NCBI GenBank assembly: GCA_025560025.1
Contig: CP048485.1
Coordinates: forward strand, 248,001 to 312,000
Source: Agrobacterium tumefaciens
GTDB taxonomy: Bacteria; Pseudomonadota; Alphaproteobacteria; Rhizobiales; Rhizobiaceae
Direction: 5' to 3'
DNA: 64,000 bases
The notes under the pieces are model-generated. The model was not told where the DNA came from. It saw nothing but the letters and a program-made list of their open reading frames with translations, and ran no database searches. Positions 15,871 through 30,951 of this stretch are shown piece by piece. Every line of letters starts with the position of its first letter. Positions within the stretch are counted from its first letter, which is position 1. The position numbers and the translations under genes are program-made.

Positions 15871-15937
15871 CGTGCGGATGCGACCTGTTCGCCGACTTCA
15901 TTTCCAGTTGGTAGAGTTTGTGGTTCTGCCTCGCCCT

Positions 15938-15952
15938 TTAACATTCTGTTAA
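15938..15952. promoter_or_regulatory. CtrA-type box TTAA-N7-TTAA
   Basis: The bases read TTAACATTCTGTTAA, followed by C, a perfect match to the CtrA full site. It lies in the intergenic region 130 bases upstream of a 44-residue membrane ORF (16082) and 25 bases before an alternative in-frame ATG at 15977. It is one of only three such sites I found in the window. Binding is inferred. Confidence 0.5.
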
Positions 15953-16036
15953 CGGGCGCGGAGTCATCCTGAGTGAATGCCAGCAAAGCCGGTTTACTCA
16001 AGTGATCCCGCTGCACATGATGTCCTGCTGGAGGCC

Positions 16037-16384
16037 TTAACAGGGCATGGGTCGGTTGAGTTTTTCGTCAGGAACCCGCGCATGAACAGATTTGCACATC
16101 GCCGCCCTCGCGCCATTGCCATCGCTCGCACTGACAACGAGAGCCGACAACTGGCCTTTCGCCTGAGCCTCATCGCCGCCGGTGCTCTGGCAGCCCTGAT
16201 CGCCCTCTTTTACTGATCGGCGGCCCTTCGCTTTTATCAAGCTGATGAGCGCGCTGAAAAGCCGCCATGGCCGAGATGCCTCGGCCATATCAGTATAAAA
16301 CTTCTCTTCCTGCAAAACGGCTTCGCGCCGCGTGCGCGGCTGCTGGTTTTCGATGATGGCCCGGGCTGCAAAAATCGCGTGCAT
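16037..16384 (-). CDS. Small hypothetical protein, divergent from the LysR gene
   Basis: 115 residues with no family I recognise. Its start at 16384 has an excellent ribosome binding site (AGAAGGAG, seven bases upstream), which is the main support. The first 60 residues are balanced and look protein-like (RPWRLFSALISLIKAKG); the C-terminal half lies antisense to another ORF and looks less so. It is soluble or peripheral, with a short amphipathic stretch near residues 40-52. It shares an 85-base promoter region with the LysR-family gene reading the other way, so it could be that regulator's target. Confidence 0.5.
   Translation of the reverse strand: MHAIFAARAIIENQQPRTRREAVLQEEKFYTDMAEASRPWRLFSALISLIKAKGRRSVKEGDQGCQSTGGDEAQAKGQLSALVVSASDGNGARAAMCKSVHARVPDEKLNRPMPC
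16082..16216 (+). CDS. Possible 44-residue single-span membrane protein
   Basis: The ORF starts at ATG 16082 with AGGAA eight bases upstream. It encodes a basic N-terminus (MNRFAHRRPRAIAIART) and one C-terminal membrane helix (LSLIAAGALAALIALFY). A longer in-frame start exists at 15977. It is fully antisense to the 115-residue ORF at 16037-16384, so at most one is likely to be a conventional gene along this stretch. The CtrA-type box at 15938 on its upstream side favours transcription in this direction. Confidence 0.35.
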   Translation: MNRFAHRRPRAIAIARTDNESRQLAFRLSLIAAGALAALIALFY

Positions 16385-16469: not shown

Positions 16470-17342
16470 ATGAAAAACGTCACCTGGGATTCCTACCAGC
16501 TTTTCCTCGATGTGTCACGCAGCGGCGGTCTGACGGGTGCTGCGGCGCTGACGGGTTTGAGTCCCGCGACGGTGGGGCGGCGCATGGTCGAGCTGGAGGA
16601 GCGTATCGGCAAGGCGCTGTTCCAGCGCAGCCAGACGGGATACGCCCTCACGGCGGATGGCCGCACGCTGTTTGATCGACTTCAGGCGATGGAGAATGCG
16701 GCAAGGGACATTGAGGGATGGCAGAAGGCGTCGTCGGCCTCGTCTGTGGTGCGTATTGCCGTCGGCACCTGGAACGCCTGGCTGCTGACCGGGAATTTCT
16801 CGGCCATCTGCACGGATCGCGACGATTTCCGCATCGATCTTTTCATTGCCGAACAGAGGGCGTCTCTGGCCCATCGCGAAAATGATATCGGCATTCGCGC
16901 TTTCGAACCGCAGGAAAAGAACCTTGCCGCCATCAGGACGGGGGAGGTGGCCTATGCTCCCTACAGGCTGCGCAACGCCGCCACTACCGTTGCTGATCGG
17001 TGGCTGGCGGTGGCGGAGGAAAACGCTATTTCAACCTATCTGCGCTGGCCGCATGAAAATCGTAACAACGAGATTGTGGTAACGGTGAACCGGCCGACGG
17101 CGCTTCTCGATCTGGTCCTGGCCGGGGCAGGGGTCGCCGTGCTTCCCTGTTTCGTGGGCGATGCCGATGCGCGCCTCGTTCGGGAAGGTGACGAGCTGGA
17201 GAGCCTTCGCCACAATCAATGGATCGTCATGAACAATGACGATCGCCACCGCCGAGATATCAGGACGGTGGCGGATCGGATGACCCGTCTGATCAAGAGC
17301 CATTCCGATCTGTATGCCGGGCGCAAGAGCCGCCCGGCATAG
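16470..17342 (+). CDS. LysR-family transcriptional regulator
   Basis: 290 residues. The N-terminal winged helix-turn-helix (residues 1-62: WDSYQLFLDVSRSGGLTGAA, GLSPATVGRRMVELEERIG) is followed by an effector domain of about 200 residues, which is divergent from typical LysR sensors but ends with LLDLVLAGAGVAVLPCFVGD as usual. It acts as a cytoplasmic DNA-binding regulator; the inducer is unknown. It is divergent from the small ORF at 16037-16384. The following gene on the opposite strand converges on it with 13 bases between. Confidence 0.88.
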   Translation: MKNVTWDSYQLFLDVSRSGGLTGAAALTGLSPATVGRRMVELEERIGKALFQRSQTGYALTADGRTLFDRLQAMENAARDIEGWQKASSASSVVRIAVGTWNAWLLTGNFSAICTDRDDFRIDLFIAEQRASLAHRENDIGIRAFEPQEKNLAAIRTGEVAYAPYRLRNAATTVADRWLAVAEENAISTYLRWPHENRNNEIVVTVNRPTALLDLVLAGAGVAVLPCFVGDADARLVREGDELESLRHNQWIVMNNDDRHRRDIRTVADRMTRLIKSHSDLYAGRKSRPA

Positions 17343-24163: not shown

Positions 24164-24976
24164 ATGAAGCGCGGAAAATTCGACATCACCGTCCTCACCC
24201 TCGGTTTTGCCTTTCTTTATATCCCGATCATCATCCTGATCGTTTATTCCTTCAACGCTTCCAAGCTCGTCACCGTCTGGGGCGGCTTTTCCCTGCAATG
24301 GTACCGCTCCATGTGGTCCAACCAGGGGCTGATGGATGCCGCCTGGGTGACGCTGCGCGTCGGCATCCTCAGCGCCACCATCGGCACCATCCTCGGAACG
24401 CTGGCGGCGCTGTCGCTCACCCGCTTCGCGCGCTTCCCGGGACGCGTGCTGTTTTCCGGCATGATCTATGCGCCGCTCGTCATGCCTGAGGTCATCACCG
24501 GCCTGTCGCTGCTGCTCCTGTTCGTGGCCGTCGGGGTGGATCGCGGTTTCTGGACGGTGGTCATCGCCCATACGACTTTCACCATGTGTTACGTGGCGAT
24601 CGTCGTGCAGTCGCGCCTGTTGACCTTCGATCGGAGTCTGGAGGAGGCGGCGCTCGATCTCGGCTGCCCGCCGGTCAAGACGTTCTTCCGTATCACCCTG
24701 CCGCTGATCTTCCCCGCCGTCATCGCCGGCTGGATGCTGGCCTTCACCCTGTCGCTCGACGATCTCGTGATCGCCAGCTTCGCAACCGGCCCCGGCGCAA
24801 CCACGCTGCCGATCAAGATCTATTCCCAGGTTCGCCTCGGCGTGACGCCGGAAATCAACGCGATCTGCACGATCCTCATCGGCCTCGTCACCATCGGCGT
24901 GATTGTCGCTTCCATCGCCTCCAAACGCACCGAGCTCCAGCGGATGAGGGACGAGCACGCGGCCGCGCGCCACTGA
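24164..24976 (+). CDS. potI: Putrescine ABC transporter permease
   Basis: 270 residues, six membrane helices, of the PotC/PotI type: N-terminal VLTLGFAFLYIPIIILIVYS, the EAA loop EAALDLGCPPVKTFFRITLP and the family motif FTLSLDDLVIASF. The start at 24164 is four bases after the potH stop behind GTGAGG. Last gene of potFGHI; no terminator is obvious directly after it. Confidence 0.95.
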   Translation: MKRGKFDITVLTLGFAFLYIPIIILIVYSFNASKLVTVWGGFSLQWYRSMWSNQGLMDAAWVTLRVGILSATIGTILGTLAALSLTRFARFPGRVLFSGMIYAPLVMPEVITGLSLLLLFVAVGVDRGFWTVVIAHTTFTMCYVAIVVQSRLLTFDRSLEEAALDLGCPPVKTFFRITLPLIFPAVIAGWMLAFTLSLDDLVIASFATGPGATTLPIKIYSQVRLGVTPEINAICTILIGLVTIGVIVASIASKRTELQRMRDEHAAARH

Positions 24977-25105
24977 TGGAATGGTCCGTTTCGATTTCTG
25001 CGCGTTACTGTTGTAATCGCAAGGAAATTAGAAACTCATAATTTAATTTTGGGCCTCTAAGGTCTAAAAATAGGAATTATCGTCGGTAATTGATCGATTT
25101 TGGTT

Positions 25106-25120
25106 TTAACCGCTTGTTAA
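25106..25120. promoter_or_regulatory. CtrA-type box TTAA-N7-TTAA
   Basis: The bases read TTAACCGCTTGTTAA, a perfect CtrA full site, in the gap between potI and the convergent iron-type permease gene. Downstream on the plus strand lie a palindrome, a pyrimidine-rich loop and an intrinsic terminator, so the box appears to serve a short non-coding unit rather than either flanking gene. Confidence 0.55.
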
Positions 25121-25139
25121 TAGGAGTTGGCGGAAAGTA

Positions 25140-25267
25140 AACCCAACGCAGGGCTGTCAAAATTTTGATAGCCGGGATTGATAATTTCCATATGGCGAGG
25201 TTGTCCCCCTTTCTCTCGTTGAAAAAGCACAACTAATACAGGCGGTCGCAAGGCCGCCTTTCTTTTT
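25140..25267 (+). ncRNA. Candidate small RNA with three hairpins and terminator
   Basis: This lies in a 311-base gap between convergent genes, so no protein gene needs it. It has a near-perfect 22-base palindrome at 25152-25173 (arms GGCTGTCAAAA/TTTTGATAGCC, one wobble), a weak CGAG/CTCG stem (25196-25199, 25215-25218) with the pyrimidine loop TTGTCCCCCTTTCT, and an intrinsic terminator. The loop could pair with purine-rich ribosome binding sites. The 5' end is placed by assuming a promoter at the CtrA box 20-35 bases upstream. A 14-codon ORF (25192-25236) is also contained and may be fortuitous. Rhizobial sRNA families such as EcpR1 or the alpha-r groups are possible matches, unchecked. Confidence 0.45.
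25241..25267 (+). terminator. Intrinsic terminator of the candidate small RNA
   Basis: Stem GGCGG/CCGCC (25241-25245, 25254-25258) with an 8-base loop, then TTTCTTTTT. The T-tract lies only on the plus strand, so it does not end the permease gene on the other strand. Confidence 0.75.
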
Positions 25268-25287
25268 GTCGCCAGTCCGGGTGCCGT

Positions 25288-26952
25288 TCAGCGGTTTTCC
25301 GGGTGATCCATCGATTTTGAGACGAGAAGCACGGGTATAAGACCGGCGAGAATGATGATGATGGCCGGCACGGCGGCATCCTGCACCCGCGAGCGGGAGG
25401 CATCCTCATAGACCAGTGTGGCAAGCGTGTTGAAGCCGAAAGGCCTGAGCAGGATCGTGGCCGGCAGCTCCTTCATGGATTCGATCAGGACCAGCAGAAA
25501 GGCGGTCAGCGCCGCAGGCCGCATATTGGGCAATAGCACCTTGAACAGCGTCTGCGCCCGGTTGCGTCCAAGCGTCCGCGAGGCCATGTCGATATGCGGC
25601 GAAAGCTTCTGGAAACCGGCATCGAGCGTGCCTTCCGCCATGGTCATGAAGCGCACGCTATGGGCGTAGATGATGGCGAAGGCAGTGCCGGAAAGCAGCA
25701 GGCCGCTTGAAAACCCGAAATGTGACCGGATGAGCCCGTCAACGCGATTGTCGAGACCGGCCAGCGGGATGAGCACGCCTATCGCAAGCACCGTTCCCGG
25801 CACGCCATAGCCCATGGAGCCGAGGCGCGCGGCCACCTTTGAAGTGCGGGAGCGCTCGGTGCGGATGGCGTAGGAGAAGACGAAAGCCGCAATCAGCGTC
25901 ACGAAAGCGGCGGAAAGCGAGACCTCAAGACTATGCCCGAGCGCTTTCAGAAGCTTCGGTGAAAACAGCGCATCCAGCCTTTTCACGGCGTAACCGCCAA
26001 GAACGATCACGGGAATAAGGAAGCCGCTCAAAACGGGAAGCAGGCAGAACAGGCTCGCGGACCAGCGCCGCCAGCCTCCAAGCTGTTTCAGCCGGTGGCG
26101 CTGCGCCATGCTGGTGGCTTTCGGTGCGGCAAAGCGCTGTCTTTCGCGGGCATTGCGTTCAATGACGATCAACACACCGACAATGAGCAGGATGACGGCG
26201 GCGATCTGCGTCGCATTGGCGAGGTTGCCGCGATTGAGCCAGGTCTCATAGATCGTGAAGGTCAGCGTCTGCACGCCGAGATATTCGACCGCGCCGATAT
26301 CGTTCAGCGTTTCCATCAATACCAGGGAAAGCCCTATGGCGATTGCCGGCCGCGCCATCGGCAATTGCACGGAAAAGAACACATTCAGCGGTTTTGCGCC
26401 GAGCGTGCGTGCGGCCTCGGCCGCAAACCGCCCCTGCATGGAAAACGCTGCCCGGGCCGAAAGATAGACATAGGGGTAAAGCACCGAACTCAGCACCACG
26501 ACCGCGCCACCGAGTGAGCGTATGTCCGGAAACCAGTAGTCGCGGATACTGTGATAACCGAAGGCGGCGCGGACGGCGCTCTGCACCGGGCCGGTGAAAT
26601 CCAGAAACTCGCCGAATGCATAGGCCGCCAGATAGGAGGGAATGGCAAGTGGCAGGACGAGTGCCGCAGAGAGTACCCGCCGCAGCGGAAATTCGAATGT
26701 GGTGACAAGCCAGGCGCAGACGATGCCGAAGAATGTGGTCATCGCTGCTGTCATCCCCAGAAGCAGAAAGGTGCGAAATCCGGCGCGCGGCAGAACATTG
26801 GCAAGAAGATGCTGCCATCCCTCGGTGCTGCCGGTCAACGCCAGCCAGAAGATCGCCAGAATGGGCATGGCGGCAATGGCTGCGACAATGACCGCCGTTA
26901 TGGGCAACAATGAAAAGCGTCTTGTTGCCGGAAGGGAAACCGTCATGGACAT
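25288..26952 (-). CDS. Iron(III)-type ABC transporter permease (FbpB/SfuB family)
   Basis: 554 residues with two fused permease domains and about twelve membrane helices. Each half carries an EAA-type loop: AEAARTLGAKPLNVFFSVQL and MASRTLGRNRAQTLFKVLLP. This double architecture is characteristic of Fe3+ and some thiamine or phosphonate importers. No binding protein or ATPase gene accompanies it here, so the partners must be elsewhere. It follows the PdhS kinase gene by 77 bases on the same strand and may share its transcript. The start at 26952 has a second ATG two codons later. Confidence 0.83.
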   Translation of the reverse strand: MSMTVSLPATRRFSLLPITAVIVAAIAAMPILAIFWLALTGSTEGWQHLLANVLPRAGFRTFLLLGMTAAMTTFFGIVCAWLVTTFEFPLRRVLSAALVLPLAIPSYLAAYAFGEFLDFTGPVQSAVRAAFGYHSIRDYWFPDIRSLGGAVVVLSSVLYPYVYLSARAAFSMQGRFAAEAARTLGAKPLNVFFSVQLPMARPAIAIGLSLVLMETLNDIGAVEYLGVQTLTFTIYETWLNRGNLANATQIAAVILLIVGVLIVIERNARERQRFAAPKATSMAQRHRLKQLGGWRRWSASLFCLLPVLSGFLIPVIVLGGYAVKRLDALFSPKLLKALGHSLEVSLSAAFVTLIAAFVFSYAIRTERSRTSKVAARLGSMGYGVPGTVLAIGVLIPLAGLDNRVDGLIRSHFGFSSGLLLSGTAFAIIYAHSVRFMTMAEGTLDAGFQKLSPHIDMASRTLGRNRAQTLFKVLLPNMRPAALTAFLLVLIESMKELPATILLRPFGFNTLATLVYEDASRSRVQDAAVPAIIIILAGLIPVLLVSKSMDHPENR

Positions 26953-27029: not shown

Positions 27030-30000
27030 TCAGTTGGCAAGAACCCGCTGTGACGGAAAGGTGATTTCCACCAGCGTTCCTTCATTTGGTGTCGAGGTGA
27101 TGGAAAAGTTGGCGCGATTGGCATCCACCATGGCCTTGGTCAGCGGCAGGCCGAGCCCGGTGCCGTCGCCGCGCACGCGCTTGCCTGATGATGCCACCTG
27201 CCGGAAGGGTTTCATCGCCTGCTCCAGTTCAGCCCGCGTCATGCCGATGCCGGTGTCGCGAATGCGCAGCGACACGCTGCCATTGGCCTCATAGGCGGTG
27301 GAAACGACGATCTGGCCGCCTGATGGCGTAAAGCGGATGGCGTTCGACAGGATGTTGAGCACGATCTGCTTGATCGAACGCAGATCGGCGACGATCTGCG
27401 GCACGGATTGCGAAAGTGCCGTGCGGATAATGACACGCTGGTTATTGGCCTGCGGCTGCACCAGCGAGACCGCTTCGGCCACCGTCTCGTTCAGCGGCAC
27501 GGCGATGAAATCCACGTCCATCTGACCGGCTTCGATCTTGGAGATGTCGAGCAGATCGTTGACGATGTCGAGCACGTGCCGGCCCGAACGGCCAATATCA
27601 TTGGCATATTCCACATAACGCGGATTGCCGATCGGCCCGAAACGTTCGGTTGCCATCATGTCGGAGAAACCGATGATGGCGTTGAGCGGCGTACGGATTT
27701 CATGGCTGACGCGCGCCAGAAAATCGGTCTTGTGGGCATTGGCGGTTTCCGCCGCCCGCTTGGCATTACGCAGCTCTTCTTCCGTGCGTTTCCACTGGGT
27801 GATGTCACGGATGACGGCGCAATAACCATGCGAGGACTTGAGCCGGCCAATGGTCATGAACAGCGGCAGAAAACCGCCGGAAGCCTCACGGCCGATCACT
27901 TCGCGGCCATCGTTCAGCACGCTGGCCACACCATTATTGGCAAGGCCGGAGAGATAGTCCAAAACGGCTCGCTGGCTTTCATGCGCAAACAGCGTGACGA
28001 AGGGTTTCCCGGCGATCTCGCCATTGTCATAGTTGAACAGCGCACTGGCGGAACGGTTAAGCGAACGGATTTCGCCCTCGTCGCCCAGAAGCACCACACC
28101 GTCGGTCGCCGTTTCCAGAATGGAATGCAGCTCCTCGACTTCGCCCTGCAGCAGGGAAAGGCTACCGGCCTCCGCATTCGCCGTTTCGGCGGCTGCCGTA
28201 TTTTCATTCGCCGCTGCAACCGGTGCCTGCTTCTCTTCCAGCGGTACCAGCGACAGCATCAGCGCTTTGGTCTCTTCCCAGCGGATGGATTGCAGCCGTG
28301 CCTTGACCGGAATGATATCGTTTTCGGCGCTGACGACGACCATGCCGCCTTCATTGTCGGGCATATTCTCCAGCTCCTGCCGTTGCAGCAGTGCCTCCAG
28401 CCCGCCGACCTCATGCAATTCATCGAGAGAGCCGTAACCCGTCAGCCGCAGGAAATCAGGATTGGCGTGGATCAGCCTGTCGCCGGCATGCACCAGCAGC
28501 GCCACGGGCATCTGGTCCAGCGTTTCAGCGCTCAGCGCATCGGCGGGGCGCAGCGGCGGGCTGACCATTGCAGCAGCAATATCGGCCACCGGCTGCACGT
28601 CCGTTGCGACTTCTTCCTTCTCGTCGCTATCGATCGGGGTCGTGGGCGCGTGAATGGGTGCCGGGCCTTCGCCGCGAACATAGTCCGCGAAGAGATCGTC
28701 TTCCTCGGCCGCTTCCGTCGTCCTGACGTCTTCTTCCGCGGGTGGCCTGTCCACCGGCGTTCCGGCATCGATATCGTCGGCAACATCCTGCACGACCGGC
28801 TCGGCGGATACATGCGACTCCGTGAAAAGAGCTTCTTTCTCCGACGTCGGATTTTCGTCCGAAACAGCATCCGTAGGTGCCAATGTCCGGCCGATTTCCC
28901 GGAAGGCGGCCTGTTCGCCTGCGGTCAGCCCCTCGCGGGAGCGCGAGCGGCGCTCTTCAAGATGCACGATCTTGTCGGAATAAGCGGGTTCCGGTTCTGG
29001 CTCCGGGGTTGGCGCTGTTGCCAATACCGGCACTTCGAATTCCGGCGGGCTGTAATCGTGATGCTCTGCCTCGGCCGAAACCTCGGGCAGTGCCGTCTCA
29101 GATATATCGGCCGCCGTTGCCGGGGCTTCATCGTCTTCCGCCACGTCGGCCTCGGCCTGCGCCGCGTCCAGCTCATCGCCATCATCAAGAAATGCCAGCA
29201 ATTCGTGGCTTTCATCCTCGATGGCGGGCTGCGGTAAAACCTCAGTCGGAGCAGCCTCTGCGCCTTCCAGGAAGGTCAGGCCGATAGCATGGGGATCTTC
29301 AGTGGCATCGGCGAGCCGCACGATGCCGAAACCGCGAAAACCGTCGAATTCGCGCGAGCGCGTATAGGTGGGCAGGGCGGCTAGATCGATGGGCACCATG
29401 AGGGAAGTGCCCTCCACCGGCCAATAGATCGTCTTGCCCGACCAGGTGTCGCGACGACCGAGAAGCTCGCGAATCTTACCATCCGGATCGAGGTTGAAAA
29501 GCGCTGCGACATCGGCAAAGCCCATGCCTTCGACAGCCGCCGCCTTTGCGCCAACGGCCTCCGCAAATTCATGCGAGATGGAGCTGAAGCGCCCCTCCGC
29601 ATCAATTTTCCAGACGAAGCGGGATGCGCGTGCGCCGGCATTAAAGACAAAAGGCTGAGCCTCTTCTGTTGGGTCTGTTGCCGCCGAGGTGTCGTCTTCA
29701 GGCGATAAAGCGATATCCGCCGTCACCGTTTCAGCGACTTCAACGTCTGCCGCTTCGCTCTCTGCTTCTTCGAGCGCCTCGCCAGCATGGTCCTCGCCAA
29801 TGATGCGGTCGGTCGCCGGAACCTCCAGCTCATCCGCATCGAGTTCGAAGAGATCGGCAATATCGTCGGTCATCGCCTCGTTCGCCGCTGTCTCCGTGTC
29901 CTCCACGAAGATATCCAGCGGGGCCTCCGCCTGTTCCTCTGCGGCAACCGGCAGGACGGTGGCTTCTTCCTGTTCCGCCACCATCTCGTCTTCGGCGTCG

Positions 30001-30848
30001 GAAGACAGTTCCGGTACGTCGTCCACATCCTCGATGTCAGCGACCGCGTCGAGGACAGAATCGAAGGAGGCGACCGATGCGGCAACCGGCGTAGCCTCCG
30101 CAACCGGCAAAGCGGGCTCGGCGTCAGGCGCGGCTTGCTGCGGCCTGTCTTCGGCAAAACCGTTTACGGGGTCGAGCGTCCCAAGTGCGGTCTCGACCAC
30201 GAACAGCAGGTTGAGTTCGGGCGAGGTTGTGATCTGGCCGGTGGCTGCGGGCAAATAACCCTTTCCGGTCGGCACGGGCCGTTTGACGAGATGGCCGGAT
30301 TGTCCTGCGGCCATCCGCACCAGCGTCCTTGCCGTGTGCGGCGTGATGCCGAGCGACGCAAACCTGGCCGAGGCGGCGACAATCTCGTTTTCGCCGTCGA
30401 TGACCGCAATATGGATGTCCGGATCGTCAAAACCTTCGATCATGCGCCGGGCGCATTCCGCCACGTCGGGCGCGGTCTGGTCGGTAAGGGCGGAAAACAG
30501 AATGGCGGGCTGGCCCGGCTCGGCCTCGATGATTTCTGCTTTGGCGGTGACCGCAAGGCTGCGGAAACCGGCATTGATGCGAATGGTAAACGGCAGGCTG
30601 TCGCCCGCCTTGGAAAGCCGCGCCGCCGTCGCCGCCAGCTGCCGGAAGGTCACGTCCTGCCGCTTCGGGCCCTGTTCCAGAAAATCATAGACCATCGGCG
30701 TGCCGAACAGCGCGGCACCCCGCCCGTTTGCCCAAAGGGCGTTCTGGAGGTCGAGGGAAAACAAAGCCATCGCCTCGCCTCGCCCGAAACCTTCACGCAC
30801 CCGTTCATGCACTGCGATATCGATAAAGGGATACTGGACGGCGGGCAT
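27030..30848 (-). CDS. pdhS1: PdhS-family PAS sensor histidine kinase (DivK/CtrA pathway)
   Basis: 1272 residues with no membrane segment, so cytoplasmic. Residues 1-230 form an uncharacterised sensor region. Roughly 230-830 is very acidic and low in complexity, interrupted by a PAS-like segment near 400-500 (FVWKIDAEGRFSSISHEFAE). PAS domains follow at about 770-870 and 905-1030. The DHp box has His1049 (RVSHEIRTPLNAIIGFSD), and the ATPase has LNILSNAIRF, IRDTGIGM and GDGTGLGLPL. The HEIRTPLNAIIGFSDMM core is that of PleC/DivJ/PdhS kinases, which act on DivK and so on CtrA. From memory of Agrobacterium gene order I call it PdhS1 (similar to CbrA); the paralogue is less certain than the family. 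A CtrA-type box lies about 90 bases upstream. Confidence 0.85.
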   Translation of the reverse strand: MPAVQYPFIDIAVHERVREGFGRGEAMALFSLDLQNALWANGRGAALFGTPMVYDFLEQGPKRQDVTFRQLAATAARLSKAGDSLPFTIRINAGFRSLAVTAKAEIIEAEPGQPAILFSALTDQTAPDVAECARRMIEGFDDPDIHIAVIDGENEIVAASARFASLGITPHTARTLVRMAAGQSGHLVKRPVPTGKGYLPAATGQITTSPELNLLFVVETALGTLDPVNGFAEDRPQQAAPDAEPALPVAEATPVAASVASFDSVLDAVADIEDVDDVPELSSDAEDEMVAEQEEATVLPVAAEEQAEAPLDIFVEDTETAANEAMTDDIADLFELDADELEVPATDRIIGEDHAGEALEEAESEAADVEVAETVTADIALSPEDDTSAATDPTEEAQPFVFNAGARASRFVWKIDAEGRFSSISHEFAEAVGAKAAAVEGMGFADVAALFNLDPDGKIRELLGRRDTWSGKTIYWPVEGTSLMVPIDLAALPTYTRSREFDGFRGFGIVRLADATEDPHAIGLTFLEGAEAAPTEVLPQPAIEDESHELLAFLDDGDELDAAQAEADVAEDDEAPATAADISETALPEVSAEAEHHDYSPPEFEVPVLATAPTPEPEPEPAYSDKIVHLEERRSRSREGLTAGEQAAFREIGRTLAPTDAVSDENPTSEKEALFTESHVSAEPVVQDVADDIDAGTPVDRPPAEEDVRTTEAAEEDDLFADYVRGEGPAPIHAPTTPIDSDEKEEVATDVQPVADIAAAMVSPPLRPADALSAETLDQMPVALLVHAGDRLIHANPDFLRLTGYGSLDELHEVGGLEALLQRQELENMPDNEGGMVVVSAENDIIPVKARLQSIRWEETKALMLSLVPLEEKQAPVAAANENTAAAETANAEAGSLSLLQGEVEELHSILETATDGVVLLGDEGEIRSLNRSASALFNYDNGEIAGKPFVTLFAHESQRAVLDYLSGLANNGVASVLNDGREVIGREASGGFLPLFMTIGRLKSSHGYCAVIRDITQWKRTEEELRNAKRAAETANAHKTDFLARVSHEIRTPLNAIIGFSDMMATERFGPIGNPRYVEYANDIGRSGRHVLDIVNDLLDISKIEAGQMDVDFIAVPLNETVAEAVSLVQPQANNQRVIIRTALSQSVPQIVADLRSIKQIVLNILSNAIRFTPSGGQIVVSTAYEANGSVSLRIRDTGIGMTRAELEQAMKPFRQVASSGKRVRGDGTGLGLPLTKAMVDANRANFSITSTPNEGTLVEITFPSQRVLAN

Positions 30849-30936: not shown

Positions 30937-30951
30937 TTAACAGAATTTTAA
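30937..30951. promoter_or_regulatory. CtrA-type box upstream of the PdhS kinase gene
   Basis: The bases read TTAACAGAATTTTAA, a perfect TTAA-N7-TTAA. It lies 89-103 bases upstream of the kinase start codon, a plausible promoter position. CtrA control of a kinase that acts on DivK/CtrA would make a feedback loop; binding is inferred. Confidence 0.55.

Follow-up and report, generated by a model that had tools for sequence, protein, structure and literature searches.

The locus and its neighbours

The window, by which we mean the whole stretch of 64,000 nucleotides of Agrobacterium tumefaciens DNA analysed here, comes from a genome of 5.68 Mb in four contigs. The region that concerns us lies in the 311-base gap between potI and fbpB, where we find a promoter-type box, a hairpin, a C-rich stretch and, on the plus strand, a terminator. 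The genes that frame this gap, together with the next one, are as follows.

24164-24976, plus strand: potI; the best NCBIfam model is PotI, below its cut-off
25288-26952, minus strand: fbpB-like ABC permease gene, converging on the RNA (Pfam BPD_transp_1; no NCBIfam model at its cut-off)
27030-30848, minus strand: cbrA, coding for a CbrA/PdhS-like kinase (PAS, HisKA and HATPase domains)

CbrA is a kinase of the CtrA pathway, placed upstream of CtrA. The kinase of the window has as its top NCBIfam model 'cell-division control histidine kinase PdhS' (992.5 bits, below the cut-off of 2000), and it shares 52% identity with the kinase that occupies this position in Ensifer adhaerens L193. A phasin gene comes next after cbrA in E. 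adhaerens, and SMc00777 of Sinorhizobium meliloti is presumably a phasin gene as well. In S. meliloti, cbrA is flanked by fbpB and SMc00777 according to the accessible text of a published account (PMC11500502), and it is because of synteny with this cbrA-fbpB pair that we use the name fbpB for 25288-26952. A further gene, acs, met below in relatives of the window, is an acetoacetate-CoA ligase gene by NCBIfam (786 bits, above cut-off).

A probable folded RNA closed by a terminator

Family model R3, whose source sequences include the clade of the window (the window's own row being left out of alignment A7), matches the window only once, at 25142-25265, with 61.1 bits. We describe the following parts, all on the plus strand; the RNA takes two forms within the genus, named clade 1 and clade 2.

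25142-25267, plus strand: small RNA of about 115-126 nt with a putative 5′ end (match to R3)
25145-25151 with 25215-25220, plus strand: closing helix P1, AACG-AG with CTCGTT, the weakest helix
25152-25173, plus strand: stem-loop 1 (GGCTGTCAAAATTTTGATAGCC), with 10 Watson-Crick pairs and one G-U
25174-25209, plus strand: second stem-loop in its clade-1 form (from the fold)
25200-25214, plus strand: C-rich stretch GTTGTCCCCCTTTCT, clade-specific, forming the loop between CGAG and CTCG
25222-25239, plus strand: unpaired A-rich linker with AGCAC (from family conservation)
25240-25267, plus strand: intrinsic terminator, stem 25240-25259 and T-run 25260-25267 (terminator scan; covariation)

The segment 25145-25267 folds better than each of 200 shuffled versions (z -3.40), and the fold comprising stem-loop 1, the second hairpin, the AGCAC linker and the terminator is supported by covariation. 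In a family alignment of 54 sequences, which was fitted to the structure, two-sided changes affect 21 of 29 pairs, with 242 cells against 73.7 ± 9.7 after shuffling, a value reached in none of 500 rounds. These changes are distributed over the terminator (7/8 pairs, 97.7% of cells paired), stem-loop 1 (all five modelled pairs, 91.1% of cells paired), the second hairpin (4/4), a small third hairpin (3/4) and P1 (2/8, with 79.6% of cells paired). Taken alone, clade 2 displays the clearer covariation, with four two-sided pairs and no shuffle out of 500 doing as well, though it does not stand out in the number of further pair types (169/500 shuffles); in clade 1 it is modest, with three two-sided pairs, a score reached by 12 and a pair count reached by 23 of 500 shuffles. 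The linker AGCA[CT] is present in 52 of the 54 sequences.

Not all of these parts are equally constant. P1 belongs to the minimum-energy fold of 19/19 clade-1 sequences as against 2/11 in clade 2, where the other nine prefer a longer alternative helix. The second stem-loop is replaced by a short hairpin in other clades, and its inner helix in clade 1 varies on one side in five of nine pairs and on both sides in none. The 22-base palindrome recognized in the initial annotation is present as stem-loop 1, though in an imperfect form. That annotation had also drawn a CGAG/CTCG stem around a pyrimidine-rich loop: both sequences are there (CGAG at 25196-25199, CTCG at 25215-25218, on either side of GTTGTCCCCCTTTCT), yet the stem competes with the minimum-energy fold, which pairs CGAG upstream (25180-25188 with 25197-25205), and it has no support from covariation because it never varies. 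It had been suggested that the loop itself could mask purine-rich ribosome binding sites. The exact string TTGTCCCCCTTTCT is found in 13/19 sequences of clade 1 and in 0/11 of clade 2, so that, the loop being confined to one clade, its role as a conserved targeting element finds no support.

We may ask whether the region would rather code for a small protein, since a frame of 14 amino acids is open in the window at 25192-25236. Its start and stop are both intact in four of 19 clade-1 sequences, the start being missing in six and a stop inside the RNA in nine of the 19; the frame is not conserved and we reject this most improbable proposal. The absence of a conserved reading frame counts in favour of a small RNA.

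The plus-strand terminator was rightly recognized from the outset: two terminator-like sites occur in 24900-25500, compared with 0.8 ± 0.9 in shuffled sequence. It had further been stated that no protein gene needs it. The sequence does not establish this: potI precedes the terminator in the same orientation, and in our scan nothing terminator-like appears from the end of potI up to 25240, so that transcripts reading through from potI may also end at 25240-25267.

A place kept while the upstream gene changes

Of 151 genomes searched at the DNA level, 22 gave strong matches (E <= 3.3e-36), and every one of them belongs to the genus of the window. Short, weak matches in nine others (E 6e-4 to 0.009) were not counted. 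The alignment of the 22 delineates a conserved block at about 25058-25267 between variable flanks. Within the genus the RNA is present in 39/39 genomes, as is potI. Twenty-three carry the clade-1 form (the 22 just mentioned and G484, of the same species) and 16 the strongly diverged form that we call clade 2, recognized in the gaps behind potI and with model R2. The gene directly upstream of the RNA is potI in 34 of these genomes and acs in five; all five belong to clade 2, where the RNA follows potI directly in 11/16 genomes. At the latter five loci (L103, L111, L114, L116 and L117) acs is found between potI and the RNA, as it is in 22/24 loci of other genera, and the other 34 genomes of the genus have no acs at that place.

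Further away, model R1 matched 64 of 394 genomes of the family at E <= 0.01, mostly weakly, and its matches were counted only if R2 or R3 also matched. R2 (E <= 0.001) matched 34 of the 394, 28 of them in other genera, and R3 matched 75, in 19 of 109 genera and with eight of the 75 in the window's own genus, a count that includes, without a check of synteny, weakest matches of E 1e-6 to 6e-4, some of 54-120 nt. Among 297 genomes of the order, R3 matches five, all of them within the family; large searches are run under stricter filters, with which weak matches are lost. In the genus of G463 the RNA was matched in 28 of 33 genomes and the other five gave no match. The acs protein of G463 is identical to that of the named locus L190 and the RNA matches of the two score alike, which places G463 close to Sinorhizobium terangae.

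The neighbourhood is retained over this range. For 24 of the 28 other-genus R2 genomes we fetched the locus together with its 1.5-kb flanks, and each of these 24 loci adjoins at least one of the genes acs, fbpB and cbrA. In 21 of them the RNA lies between acs and either fbpB or cbrA; two show cbrA only, and one stops at the end of its contig. acs is nearby in 25/25 named loci (Sinorhizobium, Ensifer, Rhizobium, Pararhizobium and unclassified Rhizobiales), and in loci that lack fbpB it is cbrA itself that converges on the RNA.

This bears on the idea that the region is simply the 3′ end of the potI message, its hairpins and terminator serving potI only, in the absence of a separate promoter. 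The lack of a terminator-like site between potI and 25240 speaks for it. Nevertheless acs, not potI, lies upstream in five genomes of the genus and in 22/24 loci elsewhere, the RNA and the spacing of its box remain despite this exchange, and a 3′ untranslated region has no use for such a box; we regard it as very unlikely. Fold, terminator and box spacing are conserved whether acs or potI stands upstream. On this comparison of sequences the region behaves as an independent intergenic unit with a terminator and a conserved fold, as trans-encoded small RNAs do, and the autonomous plus-strand small RNA put forward in the initial annotation appears well founded. A structured small RNA is thus probably encoded here, and kept by many relatives at the same place beside cbrA.

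A CtrA-type box in the presumed promoter

Two elements precede the RNA.

25106-25120, plus strand: perfect CtrA-type box TTAA-N7-TTAA (TTAACCGCTTGTTAA), from sequence and conservation
25121-25143, plus strand: segment linking box and RNA, thought to hold the -10 region and, at a putative position, the start (AAAGTAAA and following)

The perfect box announced at the outset is present, its positions having been rechecked, and it looks like the binding site of the cell-cycle regulator CtrA. Earlier work, according to its accessible text, searched with the pattern TAA-N7-TTAAC, built on five sites that had been verified upstream of ctrA in S. meliloti (PMC3616915). By itself the box is weak evidence, because the pattern occurs 49 times in the 5.68 Mb of the genome (47 times when reversed) and is expected by chance about 0.55 times per 64 kb. 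It is its conservation that lifts it above chance.

We gathered 87 promoters, of which 80 are non-identical (20 of clade 1, 16 of clade 2 and 44 of other genera, the latter including L181, a weak R2 match only, with E 0.03), and looked in the 60 nt preceding the RNA for the site most similar to TTAA-N7-TTAA. This best match lies 35-37 nt upstream of the RNA in 80/80 promoters. It is perfect in 35/36 promoters of the genus (20/20 in clade 1, 15/16 in clade 2), where spacer and flanks change while the TTAA halves stay, as a binding site would lead one to expect. Mean pairwise identity is 98.8% in the eight box columns, against 55.8% in the other upstream columns, among 20 divergent promoters of the genus (four picked from the 20 of clade 1 and all 16 of clade 2, registered on the box with shifts of at most 1 nt), and the spacing between box and RNA is kept in both clades though most letters differ. 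By this promoter comparison the box is under strong constraint within the genus. Outside it becomes degenerate: three of 44 promoters have a perfect box, the other 41 matching 7/8 letters in 15 cases, 6/8 in 14 and 5/8 in 12. The mean best match in other genera, 6.20, is to be compared with 4.95 (highest 5.20) in 200 rounds of shuffling of the last 60 nt, where at most one perfect box arose and at most 8/44 best matches fell at the 35-37 nt place; being related to one another, the promoters are not independent trials.

The same small RNA could also be driven through an ordinary -35 region, or by another regulator than CtrA. The element occupies the position expected of a -35 region, and may in part be one (CTTGTT in the window); many promoters outside the genus display GAAA or GTAA-N7-TTTA or TTAA, and a conserved block further upstream implies that other regulators may act. 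Both TTAA halves, however, are fixed in 38/39 genomes of the genus, whereas the letters between them, which cover the presumed -35, are variable, and a box of this kind is also found in the cbrA promoter at the same locus, so that we think an element foreign to CtrA unlikely, if worth keeping in mind.

As for the block just mentioned, window positions 25058-25105, upstream of the box, are strongly conserved in clade 1 (AATAGGAATT...TCGATTTTGG) and may be a place where further regulators bind. Many promoters of other genera (L147-L170, Sinorhizobium loci) carry half sites of the TTAACC type, such as ATTAACCAAA, farther upstream, at a distance of about 85-110 nt from the RNA.

The cbrA promoter and a third box

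The box of the cbrA promoter stands at the other end of the converging unit.

30937-30951, minus strand: perfect CtrA-type box TTAAAATTCTGTTAA (then C), cbrA promoter

A perfect TTAA-N7-TTAAC is found 97-103 nt before the start codon of cbrA in 14/14 genomes of the genus examined (that of the window and 13 out of the remaining 38). CtrA-type boxes are thus kept at both ends of the fbpB-cbrA unit. In S. meliloti, according to the accessible text of the relevant study, the cbrA promoter is bound by CtrA in ChIP-seq and a lacZ fusion responds to CtrA depletion, while microarrays record no change of cbrA (PMC4433202), the last point counting against the explanation that we propose below. On balance we consider control of the RNA promoter by CtrA in Agrobacterium to be likely.

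The window contains a third TTAA-N7-TTAA box, at 15938-15952, within the long intergenic region that precedes a LysR-type gene (16470-17342). The sequence surrounding it (15900-16160) is conserved in 33/39 genomes of the genus, and the box is perfect in the 10/10 loci looked at, with a changing spacer. About 75 nt downstream comes ACATGATGTC or ACATGAAGTC, which is similar to a motif found in the RNA family. The region may be another CtrA-type unit or a small RNA; family model R3 has no match at 15900-16160.

What the RNA may do

We can now understand 25106-25267 as the gene of a small RNA with its own promoter, probably timed by CtrA together with cbrA and most likely acting in trans, an explanation to which we give a probability of roughly two in three. 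Conservation and spacing suggest that the CtrA-type box overlaps the -35 region, with transcription starting near 25140-25146 and, to judge from the sequence, ending at the terminator. The folded RNA would consist of stem-loop 1, a second hairpin whose form depends on the clade, the unpaired AGCAC linker and the terminator, and would probably, if with weaker support, be closed by P1. In Agrobacterium its synthesis would probably coincide with CtrA activity and with expression of cbrA, which has the same kind of promoter box. It would then most likely pair with messenger RNAs in trans, and the CtrA pathway would gain a post-transcriptional output next to CbrA. Presence of the RNA throughout the genus, constraint on its box, covariation, a fixed locus, independence from the upstream gene and the constancy of the cbrA box all argue for this explanation. 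The scarcity of perfect boxes in other genera, the absence of P1 from most clade-2 folds, the modest covariation of clade 1, an alignment fitted to the structure and the lack of any target found count against it.

Base pairing in trans is the step of which we are less sure, and we lean towards it. A crude duplex scan, made without accessibility on 97 start regions of the window, gave -41.7 kcal/mol for the best of them and -28.2 kcal/mol for that of cbrA, which is not among the eight best. The RNA, or its transcription, might instead act in cis on the 3′ end of the fbpB-cbrA message, by antisense pairing or interference. The converging neighbour is indeed constant across genera, with cbrA itself in that position where fbpB is missing, and on the minus strand the terminator stem (25259-25240) is followed by a poor T-run, so that fbpB-cbrA messages could enter the complement of the RNA. 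Against this, the RNA ends at 25267, before the opposite stop codon (25288) is reached, and hairpins preserved by two-sided changes are unnecessary for full antisense pairing; we find such an action in cis rather doubtful. A more elaborate scheme combines these elements: CtrA would drive both the cbrA promoter and the RNA, and the RNA would feed back on the cbrA message in cis, or on mRNAs of the CtrA pathway in trans, so as to time CbrA, in an old arrangement kept across many Rhizobiaceae genera. We offer it as a speculation, with little expectation that it will prove right as a whole.

Comparison with known RNAs

No Rfam 15 family reaches its gathering threshold in the region, and the whole window yields only a tRNA. 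Five sub-threshold matches in 24950-25450 at E up to 10 (the best, STnc50, at E 0.98) are judged to be due to chance, and no family reaches threshold on 20 related loci. In the literature searched we met no description of the present RNA, which the supplements of C58 and S. meliloti surveys may list, and no paper on a small RNA with SMc00774, SMc00775 or SMc00776. An orthologue lies at G006:C1:600627-600749, in a genome that we take to be that of A. fabrum C58. Table 4 of PMC3738593, with 24 northern-validated RNAs, has no entry near 600.6 kb in its accessible form, and the Wilms RNAs C1, C2, C5, C6 and L5 belong to other families as far as the available text of PMC3927594 tells.

Two RNAs of S. 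meliloti may be compared by description. SmelC165, on the plus strand, is 116 nt long, Rhizobiaceae-wide and in complete microsynteny, no relative in A. tumefaciens C58 being reported in the accessible account; SmelC132, also on the plus strand (757,653-757,739), is near the coordinate of the relative G722. The present family may correspond to one or the other.

PmaR, formerly C10, is likewise an A. tumefaciens small RNA with a C-rich loop. As described in the accessible text, it lies between two hypothetical genes, is found in Agrobacterium and one Rhizobium strain, and carries CCCA at 58-61 of its loop (PMC6234868). The C58-like orthologue L026 has no CCCA, and neighbours and range (here wider) differ; we reject membership.

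EcpR1 (SmelC291, sra33), the family named as an example in the initial annotation, is a trans-acting small RNA that has in common with the present one its rhizobial origin, a tie to cell-cycle control (here a probable one) and a build of stem-loops and a terminator. Known as C6 in A. tumefaciens (PMC3927594), it is, in the accessible texts, encoded downstream of divK-pleD (PMC4414408) and characterized by the loop UCCGCCGCAUCU and by control through stress and ppGpp (PMC4414408, PMC7143759). The locus here is instead potI/acs followed by the RNA and, converging on it, fbpB/cbrA, and neither 25106-25267 nor any sequence aligned in A2 and A5 contains UCCGCCGCAUCU. With a different locus and a different loop motif, the suggested membership falls. 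GspR (SmelC775), a Sinorhizobium small RNA on the CtrA circuit, represses ctrA mRNA and lies between SMc03844 and SMc03845, and A. tumefaciens is without it according to the accessible text (PMC5928217); we also reject this assignment, the present RNA having a different locus and a range beyond Sinorhizobium.

EcpR1 and GspR are the S. meliloti small RNAs named as related to cell-cycle progression in the accessible part of a 2020 review (PMC7143759), and in Caulobacter crescentus, which belongs to a different order, the noncoding RNA CcnA takes part in the CtrA/GcrA circuit (PMC8959179), a likeness drawn from description. Beside these stands an RNA family found in Agrobacterium, Sinorhizobium and Rhizobium, and below threshold for every Rfam 15 family. 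As a further family, constantly placed next to cbrA and preceded in Agrobacterium by a CtrA-type box, it would give a direct handle on post-transcriptional control downstream of CtrA.
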